In this document: piece by piece, positions 1,047 to 19,497 of the stretch
Layout: every line of letters begins with the position of its first letter
Numbering within the stretch: the stretch's first letter is position 1
Source: a virus
Length of the DNA stretch: 20,433 nucleotides
IMG/VR virus record: IMGVR_UViG_3300021197_000248
Location: 1 to 20,433 of that record
Reading direction: 5' to 3' (one strand)
Program-made: the position numbers and the translations under genes
The notes under the pieces: model-generated
The model's database searches: none
Seen by the model: only the letters and a program-made list of their open reading frames with translations
Told to the model about the DNA's origin: nothing

Positions 1047-1397
1047 ATGTCTTACAAAACCGAAACCGTTAGCCACCAAGCTAACACCACCAAAACCGTT
1101 AGCCGCCAAGCTAACACCTCAGAGCGCGCAACGCATTCAACTCGCTATTACATCAGCGACCTTGATTGCAAGGTTAGCCGCTCGCTAACTCCTGCAAAGC
1201 CATTGTCTCAAGAGGCGCAGGACGCAATCGCACAATATATGTGGCAGATGCAGCACTACAATGACGGGGTTCGCGTTATGACCCCAAACGGGCGTGCGCT
1301 CGTTGCTCATATGCCTGCAAGCTACGACCCGCCTAGTTCATTCCAATCTGTTCCCAAGCGCGACATCCACGCTCGCAAGCGTTGGGGGGACGAATAA
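1047..1397 (+). CDS. First early protein, unknown, N-terminus built on the palindrome
   Basis: The start ATG at 1047 has GAGGA at 1036-1040 with a 6-base gap; the longer frame back to 990 lies inside the promoter and is rejected. The product is 116 residues. The first 50 residues are low complexity and contain VSHQAN, VSRQAN and VSRSLT, which are the translations of three GTTAGC palindromes at 1068, 1098 and 1173; the first two sit in a 30-base direct repeat. The rest (LSQEAQDAIAQYMWQMQHYN, then a basic end KRDIHARKRWGDE) looks like a small folded domain of no recognised family. As the first gene after the early promoter it may be a host-takeover or regulatory protein, but nothing in the sequence proves this. 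Confidence 0.75.
   Translation: MSYKTETVSHQANTTKTVSRQANTSERATHSTRYYISDLDCKVSRSLTPAKPLSQEAQDAIAQYMWQMQHYNDGVRVMTPNGRALVAHMPASYDPPSSFQSVPKRDIHARKRWGDE
1068..1085. repeat. Palindrome GTTAGC-CACCAA-GCTAAC (exact)
   Basis: Inside the first early gene, read as VSHQAN. Forms a 30-base direct repeat with the next copy. Confidence 0.9.
1098..1115. repeat. Palindrome GTTAGC-CGCCAA-GCTAAC (exact)
   Basis: Inside the first early gene, read as VSRQAN; one base different from the copy 30 bases upstream. Confidence 0.9.
1173..1189. repeat. Palindrome GTTAGC-CGCTC-GCTAAC (5-base spacer)
   Basis: Inside the first early gene, read as VSRSLT. Both arms are exact but the spacer is one base shorter than usual. 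Confidence 0.85.
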
Positions 1398-1399
1398 CT

Positions 1400-1615
1400 A
1401 TGGCAGTTATGTTGACCTGTCGATCATGTGGCGAGAACACGCTGCACTCAGCACGTCACGCTATCGGGTACGACGACTGTATGGACTGCGGCGACAATCG
1501 CGCCCGTGAAGAACGCGCAGGATGGTGCATCGCACCTATCGCGCACAAGCAAGGGGCGACCCTTGTAACAAACCGCAATGACCTCAAAGGTCTTAACAAA
1601 TACACTGGAGAATGA
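1400..1615 (+). CDS. Small zinc-ribbon-like protein
   Basis: The ATG at 1400 lies two bases after the previous stop, with a G-rich ribosome site (GGGGGGA, 1384-1390); 71 residues. Two CxxC knuckles are visible, C7-RS-C10 and C27-MD-C30, with the 16-residue separation expected of a zinc ribbon. After these comes a polar stretch ending NKYTGE with no recognised domain. Zinc ribbons of this size in phages bind nucleic acid or proteins; the target is unknown. The stop overlaps the next gene in a TGATG junction, so the two are co-translated. Confidence 0.75.
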   Translation: MAVMLTCRSCGENTLHSARHAIGYDDCMDCGDNRAREERAGWCIAPIAHKQGATLVTNRNDLKGLNKYTGE

Positions 1616-1617
1616 TG

Positions 1618-1758
1618 ATGTGGTACGAAGTAACACATCGTGTAAATTATTACACCGTGGAAACGCATCTTATGTGGGCAAGGACAAAACACGATATCTT
1701 GCCCCTTCTGGAGCATCTAAAAATCACCGCATGTACCATGCACAAATACAGCAACTAA
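1618..1758 (+). CDS. 46-residue unknown protein
   Basis: The ATG at 1618 (or 1615, overlapping the previous TGA) follows GGAG at 1607-1610; spacing 7 favours 1618. The product starts MWYEVTHRVNYYTVETHLMW and runs through KHDILPLLEHLKI to TAA at 1756-1758. It is mixed in composition, without cysteine pairs or a membrane segment. The same GGAG-7-ATG arrangement is used by its neighbours, which supports translation. No family is recognised. Confidence 0.55.
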   Translation: MWYEVTHRVNYYTVETHLMWARTKHDILPLLEHLKITACTMHKYSN

Positions 1759-1767
1759 CTTAAACCA

Positions 1768-1785: not shown

Positions 1786-1802
1786 CAAACTGGAGAATGA
1801 TT

Positions 1803-2792: not shown

Positions 2793-3902
2793 ATGTCGAC
2801 TAACACTATGTATGCACTGAGTATCGATGAAATCGTTAACGCTATTGCGGTTCAAGTTCCGTTACCGCCCGAGGACAAGACGACTATTATTGTCGAAGGC
2901 GAGATGGGTAGCGGCAAGTCGTCGATACTCAAAGAGTTGGACGCGAAGTTGTCCGACCACAAAGCCATCTACTTTGATTGTACAACCAAGGCAGATGCAG
3001 GTGACTTGATGTTGCCGAAGTTCAAGGATTTGGACGGCAACGACTACGTTACCTTTGCGACTAACGAAGAGTTGGGTATGCACCTCAAGGATACACCGCT
3101 CATCATTATGATCGACGAGGCAGGTAAGAACCGCGCTATCCAGAACCCGCTCAATCGTTTGTTCCAAGAGCGAATGATCGGTATGCACTCGCTCCATCCC
3201 GAAAGCGTTGTCTTTGCTACAACCAACCTTGGGTTCGAGAATGTGGGCGACATGTTCATGCCGCACACTTGCAACCGCGTATCGTTTGTTCGGATGCGTA
3301 AACCGAATGCGTTGGAATGGATTGAACACATGATCAACATTAACGGCGATGCTGTCACGTTGGCGTTTGTGAAAGACAACCCACAGGTTCTCGCCTCATC
3401 TGACGATGTTAAAGACCCCGAAGATAACGTGTACATCAATCACCCGAAAGCTGTGGGGCGTAGATCATTCTGTACACCGAGATCTCTGCACAAGGCATCT
3501 AACTACATGAAGATGCGGGACAAGCTGACAGACAAGACCCTGACAGCTTTGCTTATCGGTACGATTGGCGCACGGGGCGCGATGGATATGATGGCTCACC
3601 TCAAGTTAGCCGATCAGCTACCTACCTTGGAGAGTATCAAGACTGATCCCAAAAACGCCAAGGTTCCGACAACTGCTGCAGCTATTTGTATGGTTGTGTT
3701 TCGGACGTTGGCAGCTATCGAACAGGATTGGCTCAACGCTTGGATGACATACATGGAGCGGCTTGATGTCGAGGCGCAGGGTATGTTTGCCAATGGGGTT
3801 CGCTCTCCGAAGTACAGCAAGCAGTCGATGGTTATGCAGAACCGCAGGTTCACACAGTGGGCGGCGGATAACTCGTACATGTTCTCATCGGATCAAACAT
3901 AA
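2793..3902 (+). CDS. MoxR-like AAA+ ATPase
   Basis: GGAG at 2782-2785 with 7 bases to the ATG; 369 residues. The Walker A motif is GEMGSGKS (36-43), Walker B is IIMIDE (104-109), the sensor-1 asparagine is N145 in VVFATTN, and R162 in CNRVSFV is a candidate arginine finger. The order and spacing fit the MoxR branch of AAA+ ATPases, which work as hexamers with a VWA-domain partner to remodel or activate target proteins (established for RavA-ViaA and CbbQ-CbbO type pairs). The VWA partner is encoded at 4193. The C-terminal third is helical (the lid region) and ends with a phage-specific tail. The target in this phage is unknown. The stop shares a TAATG with the next small gene. Confidence 0.9.
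   Translation: MSTNTMYALSIDEIVNAIAVQVPLPPEDKTTIIVEGEMGSGKSSILKELDAKLSDHKAIYFDCTTKADAGDLMLPKFKDLDGNDYVTFATNEELGMHLKDTPLIIMIDEAGKNRAIQNPLNRLFQERMIGMHSLHPESVVFATTNLGFENVGDMFMPHTCNRVSFVRMRKPNALEWIEHMININGDAVTLAFVKDNPQVLASSDDVKDPEDNVYINHPKAVGRRSFCTPRSLHKASNYMKMRDKLTDKTLTALLIGTIGARGAMDMMAHLKLADQLPTLESIKTDPKNAKVPTTAAAICMVVFRTLAAIEQDWLNAWMTYMERLDVEAQGMFANGVRSPKYSKQSMVMQNRRFTQWAADNSYMFSSDQT
3605..3622. repeat. Palindrome GTTAGC-CGATCA-GCTACC (one mismatch)
   Basis: Inside the ATPase gene, read as LADQL; the second reading frame of the motif. Confidence 0.5.
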
Positions 3903-4063
3903 TGGGACGGGTTCGTTTGCTTGATAAACAAAACCGTTTCGTCTCACCGAAAATGCGGAGGATGCGGCACACAAGTATGCCGCGTAAATCCGAAACGGGC
4001 GATCTAAAACCAATCAATCGTGCGGCTCGCCGCGCGATTAATAGCGATAAGCAGAGGAAGTAA
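3902..4063 (+). CDS. 53-residue very basic protein
   Basis: The ATG at 3902 overlaps the ATPase stop (TAATG) and the frame runs to TAA at 4061-4063. There is no clear ribosome site, so translation would rely on coupling to the ATPase gene. Of 53 residues, 17 are Lys or Arg (MGRVRLLDKQNR, PKMRRMRHTSMPRK, INRAARRAINSDKQRK). Such a charge suggests binding to nucleic acid or to an acidic partner; the VWA protein two genes on has a long acidic linker. No family is recognised. It fills a gap that would otherwise be unexplained in a tightly packed operon. Confidence 0.5.
   Translation: MGRVRLLDKQNRFVSPKMRRMRHTSMPRKSETGDLKPINRAARRAINSDKQRK
4016..4039 (+). other. Strong hairpin inside the basic small gene
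   Basis: AATCGTGCGGC / GCCGCGCGATT pairs over 11 bp (one T-G wobble) around TC, so the real loop is probably CTCG. No T tract follows. It could be an mRNA processing or stability signal between the ATPase and VWA genes, or a by-product of Arg/Ala-rich codons. Confidence 0.45.
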
Positions 4064-4065: not shown

Positions 4066-4212
4066 ATGACAATGACAAATGAAGAATTATTCAAATGGTT
4101 GGAAACATGCCCAACAAAAGAGTGGGCAGCAGTGGAAGAAAACAAGGGCGAGGTGACTGTGTACTTTCCCATAACAGAACAGGAGAATGAAAATGTTACA
4201 GTTAGGAACTAA
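4066..4212 (+). CDS. 48-residue unknown acidic protein
   Basis: The ATG at 4066 follows AGAGGAAG (4053-4060), a good ribosome site; the frame ends at TAA 4210-4212, overlapping the start of the VWA gene (4193). The product (MTMTNEELFKWLETCPTKEW, then an ENKGEVTVYFPITEQ stretch) looks like a small alpha-beta domain, net acidic. Short proteins with an ELF-type N-terminal helix and a following strand are common in phage early operons, but I recognise no named family. Translation through the VWA start would couple the two genes. Confidence 0.6.
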   Translation: MTMTNEELFKWLETCPTKEWAAVEENKGEVTVYFPITEQENENVTVRN

Positions 4213-5431
4213 GCTAACCGAAGAACAGCGCATCGAAAAAGCCGTTGTTCAGATCATGCACAAAGTGCCTGAGATAGGTAGCCTGCTCATGTTGGGCAAA
4301 CGTGTGGTATGTGAGAAAACCAGAACCGCATGTACCAACGGACGTGACGAGTGGTATGGACGTGCGTTTATGCGCGACCTGAATGATAAGCAACTACGCT
4401 TTCTTGTCCTGCACGAAGTGTATCACAAGATGTATCGTCATTTGATTACGTGGCGGCATCTTTGGAAGAAGTGTCCCAACACAGCTAATCGTGCGATGGA
4501 CTACGAGATTAACATCAAGATACTCGACGAGTTCGGGGACTTTGTGGAATGGATCGAAGGCGGTTGCCTCAACGAGAAATACCGCGGTTGGGGTACGGCT
4601 AAAATCTTCAACGACATTTACGAGGAACGTAAAGGCGGTGGAAACAAGAGTGATGGTGATGGCGAAGGCGGTGCTGGTAACGGAGAAGGTGACGGCACTG
4701 GTGACGATAGCTCTGAGGGTGAACCATTCGATGATCACGATTGGGAGAGCGCCGAAGAAATGTCCGAAGATGACAAGCGCGAACTGGAACGTGAGATTGA
4801 CGAGGCTATTCGCCAAGGCAGTATTGTTGCAGGTAAAGCGGGTAGCGGCGGTGTCCGTGACATGGAAGAATTGTTGCAGCCCAAAGTAAACTGGACTGAA
4901 CCATTTCGTGAATTCTTTCTGGCTACCTGCGCAGGCAATGACAACTCGACGTGGCGCAAACCAAAGCGTAGGTTCATAGCACAAGATGTCTATATGCCAT
5001 CGACATTCAGCGAAACTATTGGTGAGGTGTTGATCGGCGTAGACACATCAGGTTCTACGTTTGCGCCGGGCGTGCTACCTGCGTTTATGACTGAGGTTAA
5101 ATCCCTCTGTGATATGCTAACCCCAGAGCGGGTACGCATTCTGTATTGGGACACAGCTATCTGTCGTGCTGAAGTGTACGAGCAGTACGAGTTGGACAGT
5201 CTTATAAATACAACGCGCCCCGAAGGCGGCGGCGGTACGGATGTTAGCTGTGTGGCTAACTACATCGAAGAGCATAAGCTTGACCCGCAGGCTGTCGTTT
5301 TGTTGACCGATGGATATCTGTTTGGAGGGTGGGGACACTGGCATCACCCTACCCTGTGGTGCATCTTGGACAACGCAAACGCCCAACCAAACAACGGCGT
5401 TACAATCCACATCAATTCGGAGGATATGTGA
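4193..5431 (+). CDS. VWA-domain protein with HExxH metallopeptidase-like N-terminus
   Basis: GGAG at 4182-4185 is 7 bases from the ATG at 4193, preferred to the ATG at 4187; 412 residues. The N-terminal part carries HEVYH (74-78) within LRFLVLHEVYHKMYRH and then NRAMDYEIN, as in the putative metallopeptidase domain of the DUF2201 type. Residues about 145-200 form a Gly/Asp/Glu-rich linker. The C-terminal part is a VWA domain with a complete MIDAS: D284-T-S-G-S288, T349 in GGGGTD, and D373 in LLTDG. This is the usual partner of a MoxR ATPase, encoded at 2793. Together they probably form a remodelling complex acting on a host or phage protein; peptidase activity is inferred only from the motif. 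Palindromes lie at 4201 and 5243. Confidence 0.88.
   Translation: MLQLGTKLTEEQRIEKAVVQIMHKVPEIGSLLMLGKRVVCEKTRTACTNGRDEWYGRAFMRDLNDKQLRFLVLHEVYHKMYRHLITWRHLWKKCPNTANRAMDYEINIKILDEFGDFVEWIEGGCLNEKYRGWGTAKIFNDIYEERKGGGNKSDGDGEGGAGNGEGDGTGDDSSEGEPFDDHDWESAEEMSEDDKRELEREIDEAIRQGSIVAGKAGSGGVRDMEELLQPKVNWTEPFREFFLATCAGNDNSTWRKPKRRFIAQDVYMPSTFSETIGEVLIGVDTSGSTFAPGVLPAFMTEVKSLCDMLTPERVRILYWDTAICRAEVYEQYELDSLINTTRPEGGGGTDVSCVANYIEEHKLDPQAVVLLTDGYLFGGWGHWHHPTLWCILDNANAQPNNGVTIHINSEDM
4201..4218. repeat. Palindrome GTTAGG-AACTAA-GCTAAC (one mismatch)
   Basis: Covers codons 3-9 of the VWA gene (LGTKLT frame) and the stop of the 4066 gene, so a hairpin here could affect translation of the VWA start. Confidence 0.65.
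5243..5260. repeat. Palindrome GTTAGC-TGTGTG-GCTAAC (exact)
   Basis: Inside the VWA gene, read as VSCVAN, directly after the MIDAS GGTD motif. Confidence 0.9.
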
Positions 5432-5526
5432 TGAACAGGCCAGATAGAGAAGATAAAACGATCTTCTGGTTAGTCGTATTTTTATCTGCGCTATCCGTAG
5501 TGTTAGTGCGAACAGGAGTATTATGA
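5431..5526 (+). CDS. 31-residue single-pass membrane protein
   Basis: The ATG at 5431 overlaps the VWA stop (TGATG) and has TCGGAGG (5417-5423) seven bases upstream, a strong ribosome site. The product is MNRPDREDKTI followed by the hydrophobic stretch FWLVVFLSALSVVLV and RTGVL. The charge pattern suggests one membrane-spanning helix. No family is recognised. Position directly after the MoxR/VWA genes raises the possibility that it tethers or modulates that complex at the membrane; this is inference. Confidence 0.6.
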   Translation: MNRPDREDKTIFWLVVFLSALSVVLVRTGVL

Positions 5527-5912
5527 TGAGTATGAAAGATACAGAGAGCGTTAGCCACACGGCTAACGACCATATGTTAGAATTACTGGAAAACCTTACC
5601 GTGCTGGAAGAGCGTAAGACCGAACTACTTACAAAACTAAAACAAGCTACGATCATGCAATGGATATGGCCTGACGCTTTTGATGATGGGCAGAAGTGTC
5701 GGCTCAAGTACCGCACGAAGTCCGCAAACCGTGCGACCACGTCTGCATGGTTTTACGAATACAGCAAGGGGCTCCTTGACGGGCACAAAATAACTATCGC
5801 GTATTTAGAACGCGATGATGGCGAGAAGTATATGCTCACGCGGGATCAGCTTAAACGCTTGGGTAAAACTGAAGATCAAATTCACAAACAGTATGGAGTT
5901 CAAGATGGATAA
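5526..5912 (+). CDS. Unknown protein sharing the TESVSHTAN N-terminal block
   Basis: AGGAG at 5514-5518 with 7 bases to the ATG at 5526 decides the start (ATGs at 5523 and 5532 also exist); 128 residues. After MSMKDTESVSHTAN comes a helical segment LLENLTVLEERKTELLTKLKQA (about 18-41, likely coiled coil), then a folded region WIWPDAFDDGQKC...KYRTKSANR and a basic end. The N-terminal block is the palindrome element also present in the 1803 gene, although the rest of the two proteins is unrelated. No family is recognised. It overlaps the next gene by eight bases. Confidence 0.75.
   Translation: MSMKDTESVSHTANDHMLELLENLTVLEERKTELLTKLKQATIMQWIWPDAFDDGQKCRLKYRTKSANRATTSAWFYEYSKGLLDGHKITIAYLERDDGEKYMLTRDQLKRLGKTEDQIHKQYGVQDG
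5550..5567. repeat. Palindrome GTTAGC-CACACG-GCTAAC (exact)
   Basis: Near the start of the 5526 gene, read as VSHTAN; identical over 27 bases with 1821-1847. Confidence 0.92.
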
Positions 5913-6168
5913 CAAAAAGATAAACATTGTCACGTTTCACGCACAGCAGATCAATGAGGATGGGCTTATGTGTGGGCTTTCATTCACCGACGAGTTCATG
6001 GCTCTGGACGACGATATGAAGTCCATGTTGGTCATGGCGGTGCATGAAACGCTTAATGACTTTGTGCAGCATGGTATGACTGACGACGATGACGATGATG
6101 ATCCAATTAAAGACGCAGATGATTTTCTGGAGAGTTGCGTCAAAGCACAGGGAGGGAGACTACATTGA
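5905..6168 (+). CDS. Unknown 87-residue protein with Asp-rich stretch
   Basis: GGAG at 5895-5898 with 6 bases to the ATG at 5905 sets the start; an ATG at 5893 would lack a site. The product begins MDNKKINIVTFHAQQINEDG, continues with a helix around VMAVHETLNDFVQHG, then seven consecutive Asp (about 60-66) and KDADDFLESC. The acidic run could bind metal or a basic partner or mimic nucleic acid, but this is speculative. It overlaps both neighbours by a few bases. No family recognised. Confidence 0.7.
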   Translation: MDNKKINIVTFHAQQINEDGLMCGLSFTDEFMALDDDMKSMLVMAVHETLNDFVQHGMTDDDDDDDPIKDADDFLESCVKAQGGRLH

Positions 6169-6371
6169 ACAAGGTAAACATTTTCACGGATAATCCATTC
6201 ACCGCCTGCCCCGAATGCAAAGGTACAGGCGAGCAAACAATGGAACGCGCCGTACCTATGGGATTTACAAATCCGTATGGATACTTGGAGGAGTATCAAG
6301 CAGCATGTGAAAACTGCAACGGGCTTGGAGAAATCGAAAGAGACGAGGAGTGCGAGGGGGAGGACGAGTGA
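6165..6371 (+). CDS. DnaJ-type zinc finger protein (TTG start)
   Basis: The TTG at 6165 has GGAGGGAG (6151-6158) six bases upstream and overlaps the previous stop; there is no ATG in a suitable place. The product has 68 residues. Two CxxCxGxG modules are visible: C15-PE-C18-KGTG and C48-EN-C51-NGLG, the pattern of the DnaJ cysteine-rich domain, binding one zinc ion through the four cysteines. The tail is acidic (IERDEECEGEDE). Free-standing fingers like this are common in phages; their partners are mostly unknown. It has no J domain, so it is not a full DnaJ. Confidence 0.8.
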   Translation: MNKVNIFTDNPFTACPECKGTGEQTMERAVPMGFTNPYGYLEEYQAACENCNGLGEIERDEECEGEDE

Positions 6372-6610
6372 TTGAATTTTTCACCGCTCTTGTACTGCAC
6401 TACGAGTTGCAGGGACATGAGATCGAAACAGTTGTGTGGTTTGAAACCGAAGCACAATGCCAAGAGGTGATGCAATACGATATTGCAGCGCCGTTGTACG
6501 ACGAGTTGTATGACTTGTACGGCAACAACATAATGATGTTTTGTGAGGTATCACAAAATGTTTCTAAAAAAATCAGGCCAAAGACAAGGCCAACACAGGA
6601 GAACAACTAA
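6368..6610 (+). CDS. Unknown 80-residue protein (GTG start)
   Basis: The GTG at 6368 overlaps the preceding stop and follows GGGGAGG (6357-6363). The product begins MIEFFTALVLHYELQGHEIE and continues VVWFETEAQCQEVMQYD...YDELYDLYGNNIMMFCEVSQ before a basic tail. It looks like a compact alpha-beta fold with two cysteines (C31, C59). Short proteins with a W-F-x-T-E-A-Q-C segment followed by C-x-x-S seem familiar from phage genomes, without known function. It joins the next gene by TAATG. Confidence 0.7.
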   Translation: MIEFFTALVLHYELQGHEIETVVWFETEAQCQEVMQYDIAAPLYDELYDLYGNNIMMFCEVSQNVSKKIRPKTRPTQENN

Positions 6611-7626
6611 TGGCACTTACATACACAGCTTTCGCTAACTTTGAACAAGTACAAGCGCACTATGATAACATCAAACCCTTGGTATCCAAATGCCACACCC
6701 GAGAACAAGACGTGCGACCCATAGGGGATCGTAGCCGTAAAGAAGAGCGCATAATAAAAATCAGCGAACAATGCTATGCGCTTGTGAACGGATATGAGCA
6801 TGGAGATCCTGTGTTCCCGCCTTGGGGGCAACAAGCTCCCCCCATAACCAAAGACGAAATAGAATTTTATGCTGCTATTGTGTGGCGTAAACACCGTGAC
6901 GGAACCACCACTGTCAAAATACGTAATGGCTCTGGGCCGTGGAACCACGTCAGCAGATATGCATTTCTTAACCGACACACACCGAGAGGTATGGGTTTCA
7001 TAGTGGGTAATGGTAAACAATACATTAGAGTACATGGGGATGACCCGATATACCTAGCTAAAGGTAGGACTGTACCTGACACAAAGCGCGGGTTTAAAGG
7101 ATGCCAAAAACATAAAGATAAAACAGCGTTAGCCTTCAGACTAACTGATAACGATGCATCCCCGTGGCAGCACCTTGAAGGGACTGGTGTACCTCTGCCG
7201 AAACCGCCGCGTGTCAATAAAGCGTTGAAAGCCGAATACAAAGAACCGCTCAGAGAGTTCTTTGAGTGGGGTATGACAGTAGCAAATATGCTACCGCTAA
7301 ATGATAGGGAGTATACCCACCGTCTGGAGAAAGAAATCTCAGATCACTTCATCGATAAAATGGCACTAGGTACGTACCCCCCGAGATACTACCTTACTTT
7401 TGAAGATAAGCGTGGTATTGTAGAAAACCCCGAACACCCGCTACGGCTGCACCTGTTCGTACACTTTTGTGAAACTACGTCAGATGGTTGGTGGAACAGG
7501 GAAAGCTTTAAAGTGCAAAAAGTAGAGACAAAGGAGGATCTATCGTCCATCAAAGCCAAGTTCAATAATTGGGCGAACAAGGAGCTAGGTTTCAAAACAA
7601 ATACCAATAAAACTCAATACCGTTAA
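6610..7626 (+). CDS. Unknown 338-residue phage protein
   Basis: The ATG at 6610 overlaps the previous TAA and has AGGAG eight to nine bases upstream. The N-terminal 170 residues are rich in aromatic and basic residues, with repeated beta-like patterns (EFYAAIVWRKHRDGTTTVKIRNGSG, GMGFIVGNGKQYIRVHG). The C-terminal half (from about 200) is more helical and ends in a basic, Asn-rich tail. No enzymatic motif, signal peptide or membrane segment is visible. I do not recognise the family. Its size and its place beside another unknown of about 290 residues suggest a paired function. One palindrome (7128) lies in the middle. Confidence 0.8.
   Translation: MALTYTAFANFEQVQAHYDNIKPLVSKCHTREQDVRPIGDRSRKEERIIKISEQCYALVNGYEHGDPVFPPWGQQAPPITKDEIEFYAAIVWRKHRDGTTTVKIRNGSGPWNHVSRYAFLNRHTPRGMGFIVGNGKQYIRVHGDDPIYLAKGRTVPDTKRGFKGCQKHKDKTALAFRLTDNDASPWQHLEGTGVPLPKPPRVNKALKAEYKEPLREFFEWGMTVANMLPLNDREYTHRLEKEISDHFIDKMALGTYPPRYYLTFEDKRGIVENPEHPLRLHLFVHFCETTSDGWWNRESFKVQKVETKEDLSSIKAKFNNWANKELGFKTNTNKTQYR
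7128..7145. repeat. Palindrome GTTAGC-CTTCAG-ACTAAC (one mismatch)
   Basis: Inside the 6610 gene, read as LAFRLT (second frame). Confidence 0.65.
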
Positions 7627-8522: not shown

Positions 8523-8895
8523 TACCCCCCTTGACGAAACGGTATATCGCATTTACATACAACCTTCATCGTTTGCTATAGATGTGACATGTTTAGGCAC
8601 AGAGTGTGCTGAACGCGCATATTATGGGAAGTATGTAAATGATTTACCGGACTGGATACAAAGGAGGTTAGCGGTGCTTATGCTGATGGAAGAAGAGCAG
8701 TATGGGCATGTGATAGAAGGCGTGGGGTTCCGCAAAGACCGTCATGTTTTCTACGTTAGCCATGAAGCTAACCCTAACGCTACTCATAGGTTAGAGATGT
8801 TGGCGTTTGCTCATGGGATGGTAGTTCGTAATTTAGAGAGGCTGTTTAAAGCCTCCGACCTAGAAATAGCGGAGGATACCTTTTATGGGGAATGA
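8500..8895 (+). CDS. Unknown protein, paralogue of the C-terminal domain upstream
   Basis: The ATG at 8500 follows AAGGGAG (8486-8492) with a 7-base gap and overlaps the previous gene by 23 bases; 131 residues. The pattern VYRIYIQP, then WIQRRLAVLMLMEEEQ, then FRKDRHVFYVSHE matches the C-terminal domain of the 7650 product by eye. A helical C-terminus (HRLEMLAFAHGMVVRNLERLF) is extra. The palindrome at 8755 encodes VSHEAN right after the conserved FYVSH position. Function unknown. Confidence 0.78.
   Translation: MSPEQMVDTPLDETVYRIYIQPSSFAIDVTCLGTECAERAYYGKYVNDLPDWIQRRLAVLMLMEEEQYGHVIEGVGFRKDRHVFYVSHEANPNATHRLEMLAFAHGMVVRNLERLFKASDLEIAEDTFYGE
8755..8772. repeat. Palindrome GTTAGC-CATGAA-GCTAAC (exact)
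   Basis: Inside the 8500 gene, read as VSHEAN. Confidence 0.9.
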
Positions 8896-9372: not shown

Positions 9373-9924
9373 ATGAATATCACACAAGAACAAGTAAAGA
9401 AGCTCTTAAGCAACGTAAAAGAACTTGCTATGGTCATGGAGCGTATACCGCACAATGCAGGGGGCGCAGGGTTTGCTGTGTCTACCGATGGTGAAAGTTG
9501 TTTTGTAGGTAAAAACTACATCTTACAAAACAATCTGAAAGAGGGGGATTTCTTTACTGCGCGGGTCGCACCGAACGCAGGGTATCACATAGAGAATACT
9601 CCTCACAAAGTTATTGGGAATGTTTCTTTGTTTGGCGGAGAAACTCCGTTTGCTGAAGATTCTCCGAAAGTGCAGCAAGCCACGCTAGAAGACCGTATTA
9701 TGGCTCTCATGCGTGTAGAAGAACATGCTTACCCACACAAAGTTGGAGAGTTAGCCAGCAAGCTAACTGCTGACGCACAGGCAGTGCAACTAGCATTACA
9801 GCGTATGCACAACGCAGGTGAGATATGGGAAGCTAAGATAGAACGTAAGGGTACGCAGACAAAAGCGTCTTACGTTTTATGGGCGCTCGACGACGAGTGG
9901 TTTGCATTTGTCGATTATGAGTGA
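9373..9924 (+). CDS. Two-domain protein: OB-like N-terminus and winged-helix-like C-terminus
   Basis: The first ATG (9373) is used; its ribosome site is weak (CTCGG). The product has 183 residues. Residues 28-70 (GGAGFAVSTDGESCFVGKNY, KEGDFFTARVAPNAGYH) have the alternating beta pattern of a small barrel such as a cold-shock or OB fold. Residues about 105-170 (LEDRIMALMRVEEHAYPHKV, GELASKLTADAQAVQLALQR, MHNAGEIWEAKIERKGTQTK) look like a winged helix. A nucleic-acid-binding regulator or accessory protein is inferred. The palindrome at 9760 encodes part of the HTH (LASKLT). It might be a candidate reader of the palindromes, with no direct evidence. Confidence 0.7.
   Translation: MNITQEQVKKLLSNVKELAMVMERIPHNAGGAGFAVSTDGESCFVGKNYILQNNLKEGDFFTARVAPNAGYHIENTPHKVIGNVSLFGGETPFAEDSPKVQQATLEDRIMALMRVEEHAYPHKVGELASKLTADAQAVQLALQRMHNAGEIWEAKIERKGTQTKASYVLWALDDEWFAFVDYE
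9760..9777. repeat. Palindrome GTTAGC-CAGCAA-GCTAAC (exact)
   Basis: Inside the 9373 gene, read as LASKLT (second frame). Confidence 0.9.
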
Positions 9925-10039
9925 AAAAACTTGGGGGCGCTACCTATATGGCGGCACCCTCGAACAGTTCATCCTCGCCGTGCATGGCGTTGATGTGATT
10001 TGGAAACCCAGTGAGAGTGGCGAAGAGCCACCGTTTTAG
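9917..10039 (+). CDS. 40-residue unknown protein
   Basis: The ATG at 9917 overlaps the end of the 9373 gene by eight bases, and the frame runs to TAG at 10037-10039. The product starts MSEKTWGRYLYGGTLEQFIL and ends HGVDVIWKPSESGEEPPF. There is no good ribosome site, so it would depend on coupling. The stop overlaps the ribosome site of the next gene (TTTTAGGAG), which supports a real gene. It resembles small phage proteins with an alpha-beta core; no family is assigned. Confidence 0.5.
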   Translation: MSEKTWGRYLYGGTLEQFILAVHGVDVIWKPSESGEEPPF

Positions 10040-10049
10040 GAGAACAATT

Positions 10050-10801: not shown

Positions 10802-12563
10802 TGATAGATTTGAAATCATCGGGTTGGCGGTAAAGAAAAACGGTGGAACTACACGTTGGCTGCAAGGGGAACAATTAACTACACGTTTCTTGTCACAGGT
10901 AGACTTGTCGTCGTGCGCTATTCTTTGCCACAATACAGCATTTGACGGGGCTATATTAAGTTGGCGGTTCGGTGTGCAGCCGAAGCTGTGGCTTGATACT
11001 ATGTGCATGGCTCGCGCACTGCATGGCACGGAGAAGAGTGTCAGCTTGAAAGCCGTAGCGGATCGTTATGGCGTGGGCGTTAAGGGTGATGAAGTCACCA
11101 GAGCGTTAGCCAAGCGGCTAACTGATTTTACCGAAGAAGAAATAGCGAAGTACGCGGAGTATTCTCGCAACGATGTTGATCTGACATACGAGCTTTTTAA
11201 GCTAATGTTCAGCGGATTGCTTGGAAACCAGTTCCCACGGAAGGAATTACAGTTAATAGATCGCACACTACGGATGTTTATTGAACCTACGCTTGACCTA
11301 GATGTGTTTCTTTTAGAGCAGCACCTAGAAGAAATACGCGAGCGCAAGGACAAGCTGCTACGTGACGCGAACATAACAGACAAGAAAGATCTAATGTCGA
11401 ACAACAAGTTCGCTGATCTGCTTAGAAGCCTTGGCGTGGAACCGCCAATGAAGGTAAGTCCTACGACAGGCAAAGATACGTTCGCTTTTGCTAAATCTGA
11501 CGAAGCATTCAAGGCACTGCAAGAACATGAAAACGATAAAGTGCAGTCGCTAGTAGCCGCACGTTTGGGCACTAAAAGTACCTTAGAAGAAACACGCACC
11601 GAGAGGTTTATATCCATCGGTAAACGTGGGCTTCTCCCAGTACCCATTAGATATTATGCCGCCCACACAGGTAGGTGGGGTGGGCAAGATAAAATAAACC
11701 TGCAAAACCTACCGAGCCGAGGGCCGAATGCAAAGAAACTCAAGAGTAGTATTATCGCGCCCGAGGGCTACACACTGATAGATGCTGATAGTTCGCAGAT
11801 CGAAGCGCGTGTTCTGGCGTGGCTTGCAGAGCAAAACGATTTGGTTAGACAGTTCGCTAACGGCGAAGATGTGTATAAATATATGGCGTCTAGTATATAC
11901 AACGCCACAGTAGAAGAGATTACCAAAGACCAAAGGTTCGTAGGCAAGACTACAATTCTTGGTGCAGGGTATGGGATGGGCGCACCTAAGTTCCAAGCAC
12001 AACTAAAGAATTTTGGTGTAGAAGTAAGCGAAAAAGAAGCGCGGCATATTATAGATGTGTATCGAAGTTCCTTTTTTAAGATAAAAGAATTGTGGCAGGG
12101 CGCAAAATTTATGTTGGATAATATGGGTTCCTCAACACAGTACAAAATACCTCTAGGCCGTGCAGGGGTTCTGGAAGTACTCACAAAAGAAAAAGCCATT
12201 CGCCTCCCGTCAGGTCTTTGTATACACTACGAGGACTTGCAGTCTGGTTACACTGAAAATGGGTATGAGTTTACTTACAAAGTTAGGCGAGGCCGAAACA
12301 GAATTTACGGGGGGAAAGTAATAGAGAATGTATGCCAAGCCTTGGCCCGTTGCATCATTGGCGAACAGTTGCTAAACATAGCTGATAGGTATAAAGTTGT
12401 GTTAACTGTACACGACTCTATTGTTTGCTGCGTGAGGGACGAAGAAGTTTCTGAAGCTCAAACGTTCATAGAGGCATGTATGCGTAAAGCACCAGATTGG
12501 GCCGAGGGCCTGCCTGTAGATTGCGAGAGCGGCACAGGTAAATCATATGGAGAATGTGAGTGA
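10716..12563 (+). CDS. Family A DNA polymerase with 3'-5' exonuclease
   Basis: GGAGG (10704-10708) precedes the ATG at 10716; 615 residues. The N-terminal exonuclease shows Exo I D7-F-E9, Exo II N73-x3-D77 (CHNTAFDG) and Exo III Y149-x3-D153. The polymerase has motif A D358-S-S-Q-I-E363-A-R (in IDADSSQIEARV), motif B R407-x3-K411-x7-Y419-G, and motif C H566-D567-S568. All catalytic residues are present and the enzyme lacks a 5' nuclease domain, as is usual for phage PolA. It is expected to replicate the phage genome with the primase-helicase and ssDNA-binding candidate encoded downstream. Two palindromes (11105, 11844) lie inside. It joins the next gene through a GTGA overlap. Confidence 0.97.
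   Translation: MDVVTLDFETYYDKEYSLSKMTTEEYIRDDRFEIIGLAVKKNGGTTRWLQGEQLTTRFLSQVDLSSCAILCHNTAFDGAILSWRFGVQPKLWLDTMCMARALHGTEKSVSLKAVADRYGVGVKGDEVTRALAKRLTDFTEEEIAKYAEYSRNDVDLTYELFKLMFSGLLGNQFPRKELQLIDRTLRMFIEPTLDLDVFLLEQHLEEIRERKDKLLRDANITDKKDLMSNNKFADLLRSLGVEPPMKVSPTTGKDTFAFAKSDEAFKALQEHENDKVQSLVAARLGTKSTLEETRTERFISIGKRGLLPVPIRYYAAHTGRWGGQDKINLQNLPSRGPNAKKLKSSIIAPEGYTLIDADSSQIEARVLAWLAEQNDLVRQFANGEDVYKYMASSIYNATVEEITKDQRFVGKTTILGAGYGMGAPKFQAQLKNFGVEVSEKEARHIIDVYRSSFFKIKELWQGAKFMLDNMGSSTQYKIPLGRAGVLEVLTKEKAIRLPSGLCIHYEDLQSGYTENGYEFTYKVRRGRNRIYGGKVIENVCQALARCIIGEQLLNIADRYKVVLTVHDSIVCCVRDEEVSEAQTFIEACMRKAPDWAEGLPVDCESGTGKSYGECE
11105..11122. repeat. Palindrome GTTAGC-CAAGCG-GCTAAC (exact)
   Basis: Inside the polymerase exonuclease domain, read as LAKRLT (second frame). 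Confidence 0.9.
11844..11861. repeat. Palindrome GTTAGA-CAGTTC-GCTAAC (one mismatch)
   Basis: Inside the polymerase domain just after motif A, read as VRQFAN. Confidence 0.65.
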
Positions 12564-13533: not shown

Positions 13534-15069
13534 ATGCAGATTGTACAGGATAAAGCCATCCTGCTCACGCTGCCTAACCCGAAGCAGATCACAACAGTGA
13601 TTGCAAAGAGTAAGGAGTTGTCGATGAACGAAGTAGTCGTTAATTGGGGTATAGACGAAGCCCACAAACTGAAAGCACTAAATATAAAAGTGCCTTCCCC
13701 CATTGAAAAACGATATGATTGGGTGGGTAAGTATAGCCCATACCAACACCAAAAAGATACAGCAGCGTTCCTGACTATGAACAAACGAGCCTTTTGCTTT
13801 AACGAGCAGGGCACGGGTAAAACCGCTAGTGCGATATGGGCTGCTGATTTTCTTATGAAGCAAGGTATCATACGCAGAGTTCTCGTCATATGCCCTTTAT
13901 CTATTATGGACAGCGCATGGCGTGAAGATTTGTTTAGCTTTGCTATGCACCGCACCGTCGATGTGGCGTATGGGGCGAAAGAGAAGCGCAAAAAGATAAT
14001 TAACGGCGGTAGTGACTTTGTTATAATAAACTATGACGGGGTCGATATTGTATCGGATGCCATAGCTAAAGGCGGCTTTGATCTTATTATTGTAGACGAA
14101 GCAACGCACTACAAAAATGCGCAGACAAAGCGTTGGAAAACATTAAAGAAGCTGTTGAAAGATGATACGTGGCTTTGGATGATGACAGGTACTCCCGCCG
14201 CGCAATCACCGCTAGACGCATACGGACTGGCTAAACTGGTAAACCCTCTAAGTGTGCCTAGTTTCTTTAGTTCGTTCCGTGACCAGATTATGATGAAGAT
14301 CACACAGTTTAAATGGGTTCCAAAAGAGAACGCCAAAAGCACCGTGTTTAGGGCGCTACAACCTGCAATACGTTTCACCAAAGAAGAGTGCTTGGATCTG
14401 CCAGATATGGTGTATACCAAGCGCAAGGTCGAAATGACTAAACAGCAGAAAACCTATTATGACCTGCTCCGAAAACGCATGGTTATGGAAGTCGCAGGAG
14501 AAAGTGTTACAGCAGTGAACGCTGCGGTAAACTTAAACAAGCTGCTTCAGATATCGGCAGGAGCAATATACACCGACGAAGGTGACACTGTTCAGTTCGA
14601 TATATCTAATAGATATAAAGTCTTGAAAGAAGTTATCGACGAATGCTCTCAGAAAGTGTTGATCTTTATACCTTTCAAACACACCATAGATTTGTTAGCC
14701 GAGAAGCTAACCCGGGATAATGTCACGTCCGCTATCATACGAGGAGATGTAGCAGCGCGTAAGCGAACCGAGATATTTGCGCAGTTCCAGAACGAAAAAG
14801 ATCCCAAGGTGCTATTGATACAGCCACAAGCCGCAGCGCATGGGGTGACGCTTACAGCAGCGAACACTGTTGTGTGGTGGGGGCCGACACCATCATTAGA
14901 AACCTACGCACAAGCAAATGCTAGGGTGCATAGATCGGGACAAAAACACAAATGTACGGTGATACAGCTAGCAGGGTCGTTTGCGGAACGGCGTGTATAC
15001 AACTTGCTGGATGATAAGATAAACACCCATACGGAAATTATCGATTTATACAAAGAATTGCTTGACTAG
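13534..15069 (+). CDS. SNF2-type superfamily 2 helicase
   Basis: GGAG at 13524-13527 and the ATG at 13534 (6-base gap) are preferred to the TTG at 13522; 511 residues. Motif I is G93-T-G-K96-T in FNEQGTGKTASA, motif II is D188-E-A-T191, motif III is MTGTP (217-221), and motif VI is A463-R-V-H-R467-S-G-Q470. A Q-like YSPYQHQ precedes motif I. The layout is that of phage SNF2/DEAD-like helicases, which translocate on double-stranded DNA and aid recombination-dependent replication or remove proteins. A palindrome (14694) occupies the LLAEKLT segment that is common in such helicases, so codon choice rather than insertion created it. Confidence 0.93.
   Translation: MQIVQDKAILLTLPNPKQITTVIAKSKELSMNEVVVNWGIDEAHKLKALNIKVPSPIEKRYDWVGKYSPYQHQKDTAAFLTMNKRAFCFNEQGTGKTASAIWAADFLMKQGIIRRVLVICPLSIMDSAWREDLFSFAMHRTVDVAYGAKEKRKKIINGGSDFVIINYDGVDIVSDAIAKGGFDLIIVDEATHYKNAQTKRWKTLKKLLKDDTWLWMMTGTPAAQSPLDAYGLAKLVNPLSVPSFFSSFRDQIMMKITQFKWVPKENAKSTVFRALQPAIRFTKEECLDLPDMVYTKRKVEMTKQQKTYYDLLRKRMVMEVAGESVTAVNAAVNLNKLLQISAGAIYTDEGDTVQFDISNRYKVLKEVIDECSQKVLIFIPFKHTIDLLAEKLTRDNVTSAIIRGDVAARKRTEIFAQFQNEKDPKVLLIQPQAAAHGVTLTAANTVVWWGPTPSLETYAQANARVHRSGQKHKCTVIQLAGSFAERRVYNLLDDKINTHTEIIDLYKELLD
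14694..14711. repeat. Palindrome GTTAGC-CGAGAA-GCTAAC (exact)
   Basis: Inside the helicase gene, read as LAEKLT (second frame). Confidence 0.9.
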
Positions 15070-15118: not shown

Positions 15119-15508
15119 ATGCAAGTTCCTGTAGAAAAGCTAACGAAAGCGTACATTAAGATACGCGATAAGCGGGTAGAGATGTCGGCTAAATTCAAAG
15201 ATGAAGATGCGAAACTCGTTGATAAGATGAATACCATCAAACGAGCGTTGTTGGATCATTGCGAAGAGCATAATGTTGAGAGTGTTAGAACATCCGAAGG
15301 GTTGTTTTACCGAACCGTTAAGCAGCGGTATTGGACAAATGATTGGGAACAGATGCACCAGTTCATCATGGAGCATGAGGTTCCCGAATTGTTGGAGAAG
15401 CGGCTTAACCAAACCCACATGCGGCAGTTTTTAGAAGAGAACCCTGACGTGTTACCTAAAGGGCTAAATGTGGATAGCGAGTATATAATTTCAGTGAGGA
15501 AAAAATGA
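15119..15508 (+). CDS. Conserved phage protein of unknown role in the replication block
   Basis: GGAG at 15109-15112 and a 6-base gap select the ATG at 15119; 129 residues. The N-terminal half is a long helix (KLTKAYIKIRDKRVEMSAKF, then DEDAKLVDKMNTIKRALLDH). The C-terminal half contains VRTSEGLFYRTVKQRYWTND and FLEENPDVLPKGLNVDSEYI, with VRKK at the end. The helix followed by a strand-rich region recalls phage Gp157-like recombination or helper proteins, but I cannot assign it. Close coupling (ATGA) with the HTH gene and the ssDNA-binding candidate suggests work on replicating DNA. Confidence 0.75.
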   Translation: MQVPVEKLTKAYIKIRDKRVEMSAKFKDEDAKLVDKMNTIKRALLDHCEEHNVESVRTSEGLFYRTVKQRYWTNDWEQMHQFIMEHEVPELLEKRLNQTHMRQFLEENPDVLPKGLNVDSEYIISVRKK

Positions 15509-15738
15509 CGGATACTGTGTATTCTGACGTTAATAAGACCGCCGAGTATTTCGGTGTGTCTCCTTTCACCATAAGAAAATGGGTGAAGGAAGGTCACATA
15601 CAGCGTGACCATTACATTCGGGGTGGTACAACATACCGATACAATATCCCTGCCATCGAAAAACAGTTGACAGGGGAAGATAAACCTAAACAAATGGAAC
15701 TTCCATTAAAAACAAAGCAAGGAGAACACGATGTCTGA
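15505..15738 (+). CDS. MerR/excisionase-like HTH protein
   Basis: The ATG at 15505 overlaps the previous stop (ATGA); 77 residues. VNKTAEYFGVSPFTIRKWVK (9-28) followed by EGHIQ and a GGTTYRYNIPAIEKQL wing is the pattern of excisionase-type winged helix-turn-helix DNA-binding domains. A basic, Gln/Lys-rich tail follows. No integrase is visible in the window, so a role as transcription regulator or DNA architectural factor is as likely as excision. It is a candidate reader of the dispersed palindromes or the GGAACATT array. It overlaps the next gene by eight bases. Confidence 0.8.
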   Translation: MTDTVYSDVNKTAEYFGVSPFTIRKWVKEGHIQRDHYIRGGTTYRYNIPAIEKQLTGEDKPKQMELPLKTKQGEHDV

Positions 15739-16597: not shown

Positions 16598-16620
16598 TCC
16601 TGTATATCGTTTAAGATTGT

Positions 16621-16654
16621 ATCGTGGCGGGGACTGATATCCCCCCGCCACGAT
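16621..16654 (+). terminator. Long hairpin between ssDNA-binding candidate and primase-helicase (attenuator-like)
   Basis: ATCGTGGCGGGG (16621-16632) pairs perfectly over 12 bp with CCCCGCCACGAT (16643-16654) around a 10-base loop. Only a short TTT follows, then AAAA, so termination would be partial at best. It sits 8 bases before the ribosome site of the primase-helicase. Partial termination, 3'-end protection of the upstream mRNA, or lowered expression of the large enzyme are reasonable. Confidence 0.6.
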
Positions 16655-16674
16655 TTAAAATGGAGAGCAGCACA

Positions 16675-19497
16675 ATGAAAACAATAGAATTTTTACGCTC
16701 CGTACTAGGCGATGGTGGGCATTACTGCGTATTTGCAGCAAAGGCGTCTACCAATAAACGTGTACAAAAATTTTATGACAGCATAGAATCCGTTGCCAAA
16801 GCCGCAGACCATTTTGACGCAGATGGCTTTGATGTGTATTTCGGTTTAGGTACGCTGCAAGAAGCAGGGAACCGCAAGAAAGAAAACGTAGCCACACTAA
16901 AAGCTTTGTTTTTAGATTTAGACTGTGGGCCGAGTAAAGAATACCCTGATCAGCAGAGCGCGATACAAGCCCTTAGAGATTTTGTAGGGGACGTGAATTT
17001 ACCTAAGCCCATGTTGGTAAACTCAGGGCGAGGTGTACATGTGTACTGGCCCTTGGATAAACCTGCGCCGTTAGCCGAGTGGCTAACCGTTGCGGAGCGG
17101 CTTAAAAAAGTATGTGCAGAGCGTGGGCTACTGGCAGACCCTGCGGTAACATCGGACGCAGCACGGATACTGCGGATACCAAACACCCATAACTATAAAG
17201 ATGATCCCCCACTTCCAGTAGAGCGGATAGGAGTGACTGAACCAAAGCCCATAGAGCTTTCGGAGTTCATGCAGTCGTTGGGTGCCGAACTAAAGCCCGT
17301 TAACACGCAGATAGAACTAGGGCCAGACGCCCTGCAAGAAGCGCTGATATCCAACAAAGAGAGTGTATTTAAAACTATCGTTACCAAGACTTTAAACGGT
17401 AGAGGCTGCGCACAGCTTAAAAACGTGTGGGAGAACCAGACCACAATAAGCGAACCATTGTGGAGGGCGGGGCTATCTATTGCCAAGTTTTGCACAGATG
17501 CGGCTGTCGCTGCTGTGAAGATATCAGAAAAACATCAAGGGTACGACCATGACGATATGCAGCGTAAGCTATCCGAAATTAAAGGGCCGTACACTTGCAA
17601 AAAGTTCGATGAATTAAACCCTAACATATGCGATGATTGCCCGTTAAAGGGCCAGATAAAATCTCCCATAACGATAGGGCAGAAGATAAAAGAAGCAAGC
17701 GGCCCCGTAGAAGTCAAAGCCAAAAGCATGTTGGGTGGCCCTGTAGAGAAAACTTTTAGTATCCCTGTCTACCCACGCCCATATTTTAGAGGCGAGAACG
17801 GCGGAGTGTATCTACGCACCGTGAACAGAGACGGAGATCCCGAAGAGATTGTGGTTTACCAGAACGATTTATACGTCACGCGAAGGCTACGAGATGCAGA
17901 ACTTGGTGAGATAATCGCATTTTGCTTACATCTCCCAAGGGACGGGGTACGAGAGTTCACTGTACCTTTAACATCCGTAACTTCCCGCGATGAGTTTCGT
18001 AAAAACATGTCCATGCACGGCGTAGCTGTATTTGGCATAAAGCCATTGGAGGCGTTGATGGCATACACACAGAGGTGGATTGAAGAGTTGCAAGCAAAGA
18101 GTACAGCGGATGAAGCACATCGGCAGTTTGGTTGGGTTGACGACGATCTTATGGAGGAGTTTGTTCTAGGGGATAAACTCATAATGGGCGATGATATCCG
18201 ATACAATCCTCCCTCTGTAAAAACAGGCGGTATGTTAGAAGCGTTTGTAGAGAAGGGCACAGAAGATGCGATCAAGAGTAACCTTGAATTCTACAACCGC
18301 CCTAATTGGGAATTGCATCAGTTTATTATAGGTATGAGTTACGGTTCCATCCTCATGCCGTTCACGGGCATAAACAGTCTTGGGGTGCATCTTGTAAGCC
18401 AGACAGGTTTCGGCAAGACGACAACTTCTCAGGCGGCGTTGTCCATATGGGGCAACTCTGAACTGTTAATTTTACAGAAGGCTGACACGCAAAACTCCCG
18501 CATGAACCGTGGAGAATTATATCATAATCTGCTGCTCGTCTCTGATGAGATGACAAACCTTACCACGTTACAGATGTCGGAGTACGCCTATGCGTTATCG
18601 GGCGGCAGACAGAAAAATCGGCTAGCACAGAGCGGTAATACTGAACGTGCGCGTGGTAAACCGTGGAGACTGCTAGCCTTGAGTTCCGCTAACACCAGTG
18701 CATGGGACATACTTTCAAGAGAGAAGGCTGAACCGACAGCAGAGATGCAACGGCTGTTAGAATTGAAAGTTCCGCAGAAGCTGACCGATCCTAGAGTAAA
18801 GCGGCAGGCTGATGAACTGCTCAAGTCTATAGAGCGCAACTACGGTTGGCTAGCTGTAGAGTATGTGCAATGGGTTATAAACAACAGGGCCAACGCGGAG
18901 CAGCTTGTGTTAGACGCACAGAAACGTATAGACGCAGCGGCGGGGTTGGCTTCAGAAAACCGATTTTGGTCTGCGGGGTGCGCTACAATTATTGCAGGGC
19001 TAATCATAGCCAAGCAGTTAGGGCACGTAAATTACGATGTGAAAAGCATATTCAATTGGGTTGTGGGGGAACTACGAGAGCGCAAAGCTTTTGTGGATGA
19101 TATAGGTTCGTCGGTTCAAGAGACGTTGAGCAACTACATAGCGGAACACTACAACAATATCCTTATGATCGATAGCAACGAAGATTTGCGCGGTGTGGGG
19201 GAAAACGACAACGGGCTTGATACGCTTGTACGCCCCGAAGCTGTACCGAGGGGGCAACTTGTGGCGCGGTACGAACCCGATACGAACAAATTATTCTTGC
19301 TACCTAAACCACTAAAAGAGTGGAGCGCCGACCATCAACTGAATTACACGGCGTTTACAAACGAACTAAAAGATAAGCTAGGGGCCAGACGCGCTAAGAT
19401 ACGTATCACCAAAGGCACGAAGATGGCGATGCCTGCAGTGTGGGTTCTTGAGTTAACATTTAAACTGGATATAGTAGATGAAGGTAGCAAAGATTGA
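16675..19497 (+). CDS. Primase-helicase (AEP-like primase with DUF927-like ATPase)
   Basis: GGAG at 16662-16665 and nine bases lead to the ATG at 16675; an upstream GTG at 16624 falls in the hairpin and is rejected. The product has 940 residues. Residues about 1-190 form an archaeo-eukaryotic primase-like domain: D81-L-D83 in LFLDLDCG, H122 in NSGRGVHVYW, and SDAARILRIPNTHN. A middle region has C308, C319 and C322 in GPYTC...NICDDCP, a zinc-type element. The C-terminal ATPase has Walker A SQTGFGK581TT and Walker B LLLVSD624E, as in DUF927-type phage helicases. It should unwind the fork and make primers for the family A polymerase. One palindrome (17070) encodes LAEWLT. It overlaps the next gene by 20 bases. 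Confidence 0.9.
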   Translation: MKTIEFLRSVLGDGGHYCVFAAKASTNKRVQKFYDSIESVAKAADHFDADGFDVYFGLGTLQEAGNRKKENVATLKALFLDLDCGPSKEYPDQQSAIQALRDFVGDVNLPKPMLVNSGRGVHVYWPLDKPAPLAEWLTVAERLKKVCAERGLLADPAVTSDAARILRIPNTHNYKDDPPLPVERIGVTEPKPIELSEFMQSLGAELKPVNTQIELGPDALQEALISNKESVFKTIVTKTLNGRGCAQLKNVWENQTTISEPLWRAGLSIAKFCTDAAVAAVKISEKHQGYDHDDMQRKLSEIKGPYTCKKFDELNPNICDDCPLKGQIKSPITIGQKIKEASGPVEVKAKSMLGGPVEKTFSIPVYPRPYFRGENGGVYLRTVNRDGDPEEIVVYQNDLYVTRRLRDAELGEIIAFCLHLPRDGVREFTVPLTSVTSRDEFRKNMSMHGVAVFGIKPLEALMAYTQRWIEELQAKSTADEAHRQFGWVDDDLMEEFVLGDKLIMGDDIRYNPPSVKTGGMLEAFVEKGTEDAIKSNLEFYNRPNWELHQFIIGMSYGSILMPFTGINSLGVHLVSQTGFGKTTTSQAALSIWGNSELLILQKADTQNSRMNRGELYHNLLLVSDEMTNLTTLQMSEYAYALSGGRQKNRLAQSGNTERARGKPWRLLALSSANTSAWDILSREKAEPTAEMQRLLELKVPQKLTDPRVKRQADELLKSIERNYGWLAVEYVQWVINNRANAEQLVLDAQKRIDAAAGLASENRFWSAGCATIIAGLIIAKQLGHVNYDVKSIFNWVVGELRERKAFVDDIGSSVQETLSNYIAEHYNNILMIDSNEDLRGVGENDNGLDTLVRPEAVPRGQLVARYEPDTNKLFLLPKPLKEWSADHQLNYTAFTNELKDKLGARRAKIRITKGTKMAMPAVWVLELTFKLDIVDEGSKD
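17070..17087. repeat. Palindrome GTTAGC-CGAGTG-GCTAAC (exact)
   Basis: Inside the primase domain, read as LAEWLT (second frame). It is the last copy seen in the window. Confidence 0.9.

Follow-up and report, generated by a model that had tools for sequence, protein, structure and literature searches.

Introduction

The conserved inverted repeats (CIR) of phage phiC31 are dispersed palindromic operators of the phage repressor that occupy the early region, mostly between genes, and share one specificity. Cluster A mycobacteriophages (L5, Bxb1, TipsytheTRex) carry stoperators, many repressor sites distributed genome-wide and mostly away from promoters, with a consensus that is lineage-specific and varies with the repressor; these sites are asymmetric, lie mostly in one orientation, and are bound by a monomeric two-domain repressor (PMC6550527, PMC9283540). 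In the Bacillus phage SPbeta, the master regulator MrpR acts on repeated SPBRE elements over the phage genome; these elements are promoter or intergenic, and MrpR has a tyrosine-recombinase fold and no classical repressor fold (PMC10516654). Here we analyze a 20,433-nt (20.4 kb) stretch of viral DNA, IMGVR_UViG_3300021197_000248 (the whole stretch is called the window), which carries 20 copies of the palindrome GTTAGC-N6-GCTAAC. Comparison with related phages makes it likely, in our view, that these palindromes are operators scattered along the DNA for a regulator that the phage itself encodes, a DNA-binding protein controlling its own expression and silencing the early operon.

As with stoperators, the sites are dispersed (17 of the 20 copies in the window are coding, and 21 sites occur in G002, a related record of 61378 nt), they would be bound by a repressor, and their consensus differs by lineage and varies with the candidate regulator. 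Unlike the stoperator, the site described here is palindromic; no similarity to known repressors was found for the candidate regulator, and integrase and ParAB were not found in 11 long records, which are possibly incomplete. The parallel with MrpR and SPBRE would be that of one phage regulator without a classical repressor fold acting on elements repeated genome-wide, but SPBRE elements are promoter or intergenic whereas the sites here are mostly inside genes; MrpR has a tyrosine-recombinase fold, and the candidate regulators gave mostly helical predicted models with no Foldseek match at E ≤ 0.001. The phiC31 repeats differ from the present system, which has many specificities and mostly coding sites. 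The system appears to resemble stoperators and MrpR/SPBRE in its working, but we do not class it as a member of either, because the site is palindromic and mostly in-gene and no similarity was found for the protein.

Results

The palindrome of the window, which we call A-type (A, B, B2, C, D, E, F, H, I, J and K are class labels coined in this analysis), consists of two inverted arms of the same length. At no more than one mismatch it occurs in 12 exact and 8 one-mismatch copies, whereas dinucleotide shuffles of the window (n = 100) contain a mean of 0.07 copies and a maximum of 1. The spacing is fixed: an N6 spacer gives the 12 exact copies, and the remaining spacers from 0 to 15 give one exact copy combined. 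The coding copies are spread over 12 genes and, as an earlier note on this DNA had recognized, are read in two frames, VSxxAN-like in nine copies (1068, 1098, 1830, 2367, 2607, 5243, 5550, 8755 and 11844) and LAxxLT-like in eight (3605, 4201, 7128, 9750, 10217, 11105, 14694 and 17070). None of the 17 uses the third frame, which contains TAG; because the stop forces this absence, it is not evidence by itself. Ten of the eleven start coordinates in that note are correct, the site placed at 9760 beginning at 9750; its list lacked the exact intergenic copy at 388 and the one-mismatch copies at 505, 867, 2367, 2607, 3605, 4201, 7128 and 11844, although some copies may have been meant as "variants."

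Three copies, given like all others without strand, are intergenic (388-405, exact; 505-522 and 867-884, one mismatch). Open reading frame (ORF) 1047-1397 contains two exact copies, 21 nt (1068-1085) and 51 nt (1098-1115) past its start codon; start codons for these distances were picked by us. The DUF3150 gene has an exact copy 27 nt past its start codon (1830-1847), retained in loci L083, L013 and L021, and two one-mismatch copies at 2367-2384 and 2607-2624, the second of which is exact in L083, L006 and L013. One-mismatch copies follow in the AAA ATPase gene (3605-3622) and in the DUF2201/VWA gene, 8 nt past the start codon (4201-4218), and exact copies in the VWA gene (5243-5260) and in ORF 5523-5912, 27 nt past the start codon (5550-5567). 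The copy in ORF 6610-7626 (7128-7145) has one mismatch and is exact in L083, L006 and L013. Exact copies lie in an ORF that ends at 8895 (8755-8772), in ORF 9373-9924 (9750-9767) and in the DUF6378 gene (10217-10234). The DNA polymerase I (Pol I) gene holds an exact copy at 11105-11122, identical in five compared relatives, and a one-mismatch copy at 11844-11861 that is exact in five compared relatives; the SNF2 helicase gene (14694-14711) and the primase/DUF927 gene (17070-17087) each hold one exact copy.

Selection on these sites was assessed from codons that overlap the arms and retain their amino acid, set against all other such codons. Between the window and L083, 59 of 63 arm codons are synonymously identical, compared with 2461 of 4061 elsewhere (p = 3e-9; L083, L006, L013 and L003 are closely related to one another and are treated as a single comparison). 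The corresponding values are 17/18 and 899/1984 for L022 and, in a weaker comparison with L021, which is missing several of the sites, 27/39 and 1124/2464. The N6 spacer drifts between relatives while the arms stay conserved. Conserved arms and a drifting spacer therefore place selection on the nucleic acid rather than the protein, as the earlier note had proposed, and this excess at synonymous sites is not circular. Codon usage is also skewed in the arms (TTA and CTA make up 16 of 19 Leu codons there and 149 of 463 outside; AGC makes up 9 of 9 and 64 of 285 Ser codons, respectively), but that comparison is circular because the motif itself dictates the codons.

The same note took the peptides in the helicase and the primase to be native to the fold and the palindrome to have been reached through codon choice alone, a view the relatives do not support. 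Primase PLAEWLT is replaced by SAEQWAV, SAKDWVD, CRDDWWP or TIDKWLP in phages with other palindromes, W alone being constant, and Pol I ALAKRLT is replaced by AKGKRRA or ALGKRRE; helicase LLAEKLT is nearer its counterparts MLAQKLR and MLIDKLT. Most of the seven site residues thus differ between A-type and other-palindrome phages in Pol I and primase, and fewer in the helicase. Since the site peptides differ in this way, the palindrome appears also to have altered amino acids where tolerated.

Relatives comprised 80 loci with a related Pol I and 80 further loci from a terminase scan; a de novo search for 6-bp dyads was run on the Pol I loci. The closest Pol I loci carry GTTAGC-N6, and the next-closest carry GTAGTG-N3-CACTAC; further loci have TTTAGGGA-N2-TCCCTAAA in some cases and TTCGGGCA-N2-TGCCCGAA in others, and L037 has GTAGTT-N3-AACTAC. 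Some Pol I loci, mostly short, gave no dyad in this search. About ten palindrome classes are present among the related phages. In long phage records the palindromes are concentrated in the early/replication module: all 21 A sites of G002 (≤1 mismatch) fall within 39967-58048, all 9 exact GTAGTT sites of G006 at 44962-54583, and all 7 exact copies of G005's own palindrome at 28957-39585. In G007, all 11 exact GTAGTG sites likewise lie in that module, at 31603-45359, and a single exact GTAGTT lies at 8723 in the late part. An isolate, Rhizobium phage RHph_TM3_14A (MN988472), with 37% Pol I identity, similarly has a dispersed palindrome of its own, GTTACC-N6-GGTAAC. The part of its genome that was read contains 12 exact copies, spanning 20130-45675; copies with up to two mismatches flank its first early genes, including EVB41_028, on both sides. 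A DNA scan of viral_contigs for two close palindromes found none, and no description of these palindromes was found in the open-access literature. A terminase scan of genome_contigs gave six hits, of which the one close hit is a small contig from an uncultured Rhodobacterales bin, too little to name a host.

In long records G002, G005, G006, G007 and G009, the early module opens with a gene that is divergent from TerS and TerL and has a product of about 180-200 aa; it lies at 40114-40689 in G002 (A-type), 31727-32278 in G007 (B-type) and 45082-45690 in G006 (B2-type). Across relatives, the first early gene beside the terminase encodes a protein of 170-217 aa that belongs to no known family, and the terminase-scan loci that reach far enough have a gene of this kind in the same place. 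We refer to it as the candidate regulator, or regulator; in most loci a palindrome lies within 200 bases upstream. When first genes were clustered at 40% identity, the clusters corresponded one-to-one with palindrome class wherever the class was callable. We then compared 32 non-redundant loci in pairs, which are not independent, using a regulator identity threshold of 35% that was our own choice: at TerL identity of at least 90%, the palindrome was the same in 24/24 pairs with regulators at or above the threshold and in 0/19 below it. At TerL identity below 90% the corresponding counts were 72/72 and 4/381. Throughout, classes F, H, I, J and K, represented by one regulator each, can add only "different" pairs. 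The four exceptions are taken, from the class list, to be C-like palindromes that have the core TTTAGGG in common. This set began as 36 regulators, from which L123, L155 and L190 (no palindrome call) and one redundant entry were dropped; five first ORFs that fell outside the cluster of this family (L154, L157, L160, L168, L180) and loci with duplicate regulators had been excluded earlier. By these comparisons, palindrome class follows the first early gene and not the phage backbone, which points to a dispersed DNA switch whose recognition code evolves quickly.

Searches with the regulator as sole query were followed by a palindrome scan of 15 of the 20 loci found, the known L199, L208, L209, L213 and L214 being left out. 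In all 10 new D-type contigs (L215-L224) the regulator is preceded by an exact copy of the D palindrome, as predicted. A B2-type query gave two new contigs, L210 with GTAGTT and L212 (56% regulator identity) with a mix of B, B2 and hybrid sites. The A-type query returned L199 and one known contig, and no new contig.

Phages with closely similar backbones and different regulators allow individual sites to be compared. The core replication proteins of G006 are mostly 93-99% identical to those of the GTAGTG phages L044, L038 and L041; its first gene differs from theirs, and its sites are GTAGTT. At 52262, within flanks that are 92-94% identical, G006 has GTAGTTTATAACTAC where L041, L044, L038 and L035 have GTAGTGGCTCACTAC, and at 54467 it has GTAGTTACTAACTAC where GTAGTG relatives have GTAGTGACACACTAC. 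Both arms have changed at these two orthologous sites, and sites 50762 and 286 remain GTAGTG. L121, which has a B2 regulator, carries GTAGTT sites 844-2653 bases from TerL; beyond these proximal sites it has GTAGTG at 3183, 6184 and 9583, and it also contains hybrid sites such as GTAGTTAATCACTAC. As judged from these alignments, orthologous sites switch symmetrically in a phage with an exchanged regulator. L171 (record G016) has seven GTATGGG-N4-CCCATAC sites and two GTTAGTG-N3-CACTAAC sites of another class, a mix that perhaps reflects a further regulator exchange.

Predicted models of two regulators, of 183 and 191 aa, are mostly helical; mean pLDDT is 89 for a B-type and 84 for an A-type member. 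Alignment of these models with VIA-align gave partial helical overlaps only (best Z 5.7 over 42 residues), and no relevant similarity to a helix-turn-helix repressor of the L5/TipsytheTRex type was found via PDB chains, Pfam, PHROGs or Foldseek. Among 33 regulators there was a single match to phrog_6506 (Arc-like repressor), at E = 0.0006; the protein concerned did not come up among those scanned by name, and we do not use this unconfirmed match as evidence. HTH_3 gave sub-threshold matches only, in 3 of the 11 long records.

Other DNA-binding candidates were considered for the role of regulator, and three were rejected as not tracking the palindrome. The HTH_17 protein (15505-15738) was rejected, its DNA-reading region being identical in C-type L074 and D-type L078, as was a SANT-like protein whose recognition helix is the same in GTAGTT phage G006 and GTAGTG phage L044. 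The DUF6378 protein was rejected by eye: the helix in the window is that of a D-type phage and unlike those of other A-type phages. The winged-helix-like protein encoded at 9373-9924 was not found in several classes, an observation that does not exclude it on its own.

The left end of the window carries the 3' part of a 93-aa gene (1-273, + strand) with 86% identity to L199:4021-4227. In L199 the 93-aa gene directly follows an A-type regulator (3383-3955), and exact A palindromes lie at 3241 and 3340. By this arrangement, the window phage probably has its own regulator gene immediately beyond the left edge of the window. After the 93-aa gene comes an intrinsic terminator-like hairpin with a T tract (280-303, + strand). 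A probable sigma70 promoter, TTGACA-N17-TATAAA (986-1014, + strand), read in the sequence, precedes the first gene whose 5' end contains sites; the promoter scan, which requires T as the last base, did not list it. The AT-rich intergenic region at 568-885 contains units resembling GGAACATT, repeated in direct and inverted orientation, and is possibly a replication origin.

A single C-type palindrome, TTTAGGGAACTCCCTAAA (1768-1785, no strand), lies within a block at 1754-1809 that is 91-93% identical to blocks of the C-type phages L067, L106 and L095. The block carries the palindrome together with a ribosome-binding site, and C-type phages hold two or three copies of it. The palindrome would be a foreign or relic operator from another phage lineage, and the block reads as a sign of exchange between lineages. 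The small zinc-finger-like protein encoded at 6135-6371 is 89% identical to that of C-type L067 and 66-69% identical to those of close A-type phages, which suggests a mosaic exchange. The DUF6378 gene (10011-10598), which precedes Pol I, has a variable N-terminal HTH-like part and is 44-47% identical to its A-type relatives, its neighbor genes being about 76-90% identical. In most classes TerS is separated from the regulator by a G-rich tract (e.g. GGGGGGTCGGGGGTAGGTGGGGG) that falls in the 200 bases preceding the regulator gene (L199, L083/L082, L150, L092, L130, L090, L139, L106, L187, L167); the tract might act as a packaging site or a late-promoter element, or form a G-quadruplex.

Discussion

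In the model we favor, the regulator is the product of the first early-module gene, transcribed divergently from the terminase genes. Probably as a dimer, it would bind GTTAGCY-N4-RGCTAAC at its own promoter and at about 20 sites along an early/replication module of about 18 kb, where it would limit or shut off early transcription rather than activate it. Promoter sites would block initiation by occlusion, and in-gene sites would block elongation as roadblocks. Sites would be tolerated inside genes in either open frame because the site works at the DNA level. That the regulator binds DNA directly is what we infer from its covariation with the palindrome. Such a silencer may serve early-to-late switching, exclusion of related phages, with immunity between phages as a possible consequence, or a non-integrated dormant state.

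Several observations weigh against this model. The window phage's own regulator gene is outside the window, in L171 and L087 the 200 bases upstream of the regulator as delimited here contain no palindrome, and C-like palindromes accompany two regulator groups that are less than 35% identical. The regulator adjoins the proximal sites, so linkage could carry both together, and the distal sites alone escape this objection. In RHph_TM3_14A the first early gene has no detectable similarity to the other phage proteins searched, EVB41_028 giving matches only within its own group of four Rhizobium phages, and one-mismatch sites also occur in the late module; in the sequence read from KPP25 and Rollin, two related isolates, no 6-bp dyad recurred. 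Pfam and PDB-chain profile searches recognized no DNA-binding domain in the regulators, and Foldseek searches of their models against the PDB and viral libraries returned no match at the threshold given above. Finally, integrase, resolvase, ParA and ParB (PF00589, PF00239, PF13614, PF02195) were found in none of the 11 long records, possibly incomplete as they are, so that a lysogeny repressor would be without its usual partners.

The alternative that survives best retains the same sites and regulator but has the protein organize or mark phage DNA, in a replication nucleoprotein, in protection or in partition, instead of repressing the early operon. It would accommodate the location of 17 of 20 sites in genes rather than promoters, their placement in the replication module and a regulator without a recognized repressor fold. 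We nonetheless consider it improbable, given that most classes have sites in the promoter region of the regulator itself and that sites lie within about 50 nt past several start codons; ParA and ParB were not found in the 11 long records.

It is very unlikely that the palindromes act as RNA hairpins in early mRNA, serving processing, stability or an RNA-binding regulator. Nearly all sites do lie in early genes or leaders, and every site could form a stem with 5-7 bp or more, but the loop is variable and the stem invariant, which is not what most hairpin-binding sites show. Arm changes do not favor G-U pairs: 29 distinct one-mismatch A sites include 15 transitions, 4 of which preserve a G-U pair when the coding strand is read. 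For inner positions 7/12 of 44 distinct exact A sites, the commonest state is the non-pairing C-A (16, against 11 for C-G and 9 for T-G, with a single T-A), a pattern that fits two DNA half-sites GTTAGCY, at least one being GTTAGCC. The class H palindrome (GTATGGAATTCCATAC) is a repeat without a loop, and B-type phages have their first palindrome ahead of what looks like the -10 box of the promoter of the regulator (promoter elements identified by eye). These mutation patterns fit a DNA site and not an RNA stem, which narrows the earlier note's "DNA or RNA" to DNA.

Still harder to sustain is the idea that the sites belong to a host regulator and that palindrome classes track hosts. The classes do roughly track phage lineage, which might in turn track hosts, but at TerL identity of at least 90% they track the first phage gene (24/24 against 0/19), and symmetric site switching accompanies regulator exchange. 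Least credible is a mobile repeat or selfish cassette spreading among phages, for although some copies sit in larger gene-start repeats (1800-1850 and 5520-5570, 82%) and a C-type cassette is present in the window, most sites have different flanks, positions are conserved inside replication genes, and the arms switch in place through point changes.

A broader and more tentative possibility, which we would put at somewhat below even chances, is that the regulators form an undescribed DNA-binding family that uses a genome-scale operator code for self/non-self recognition and for mutual exclusion among co-infecting virulent phages, with sites rewritten point by point after regulator exchange. Each type would write its own palindrome about 20 times into the early genes of apparently non-integrating phages, and L121, L212 and G006 would show this rewriting caught midway.

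The phages described here would offer some ten naturally occurring protein-DNA recognition classes in one protein family, and the regulator, a protein without a recognized DNA-binding fold, is a target for structure determination. Near-identical phage pairs that differ in regulator and sites would give a direct look at how a regulator of about 20 sites changes specificity, a question already posed by mycobacteriophage stoperators. The findings suggest that dispersed-operator control extends beyond clearly temperate phages.

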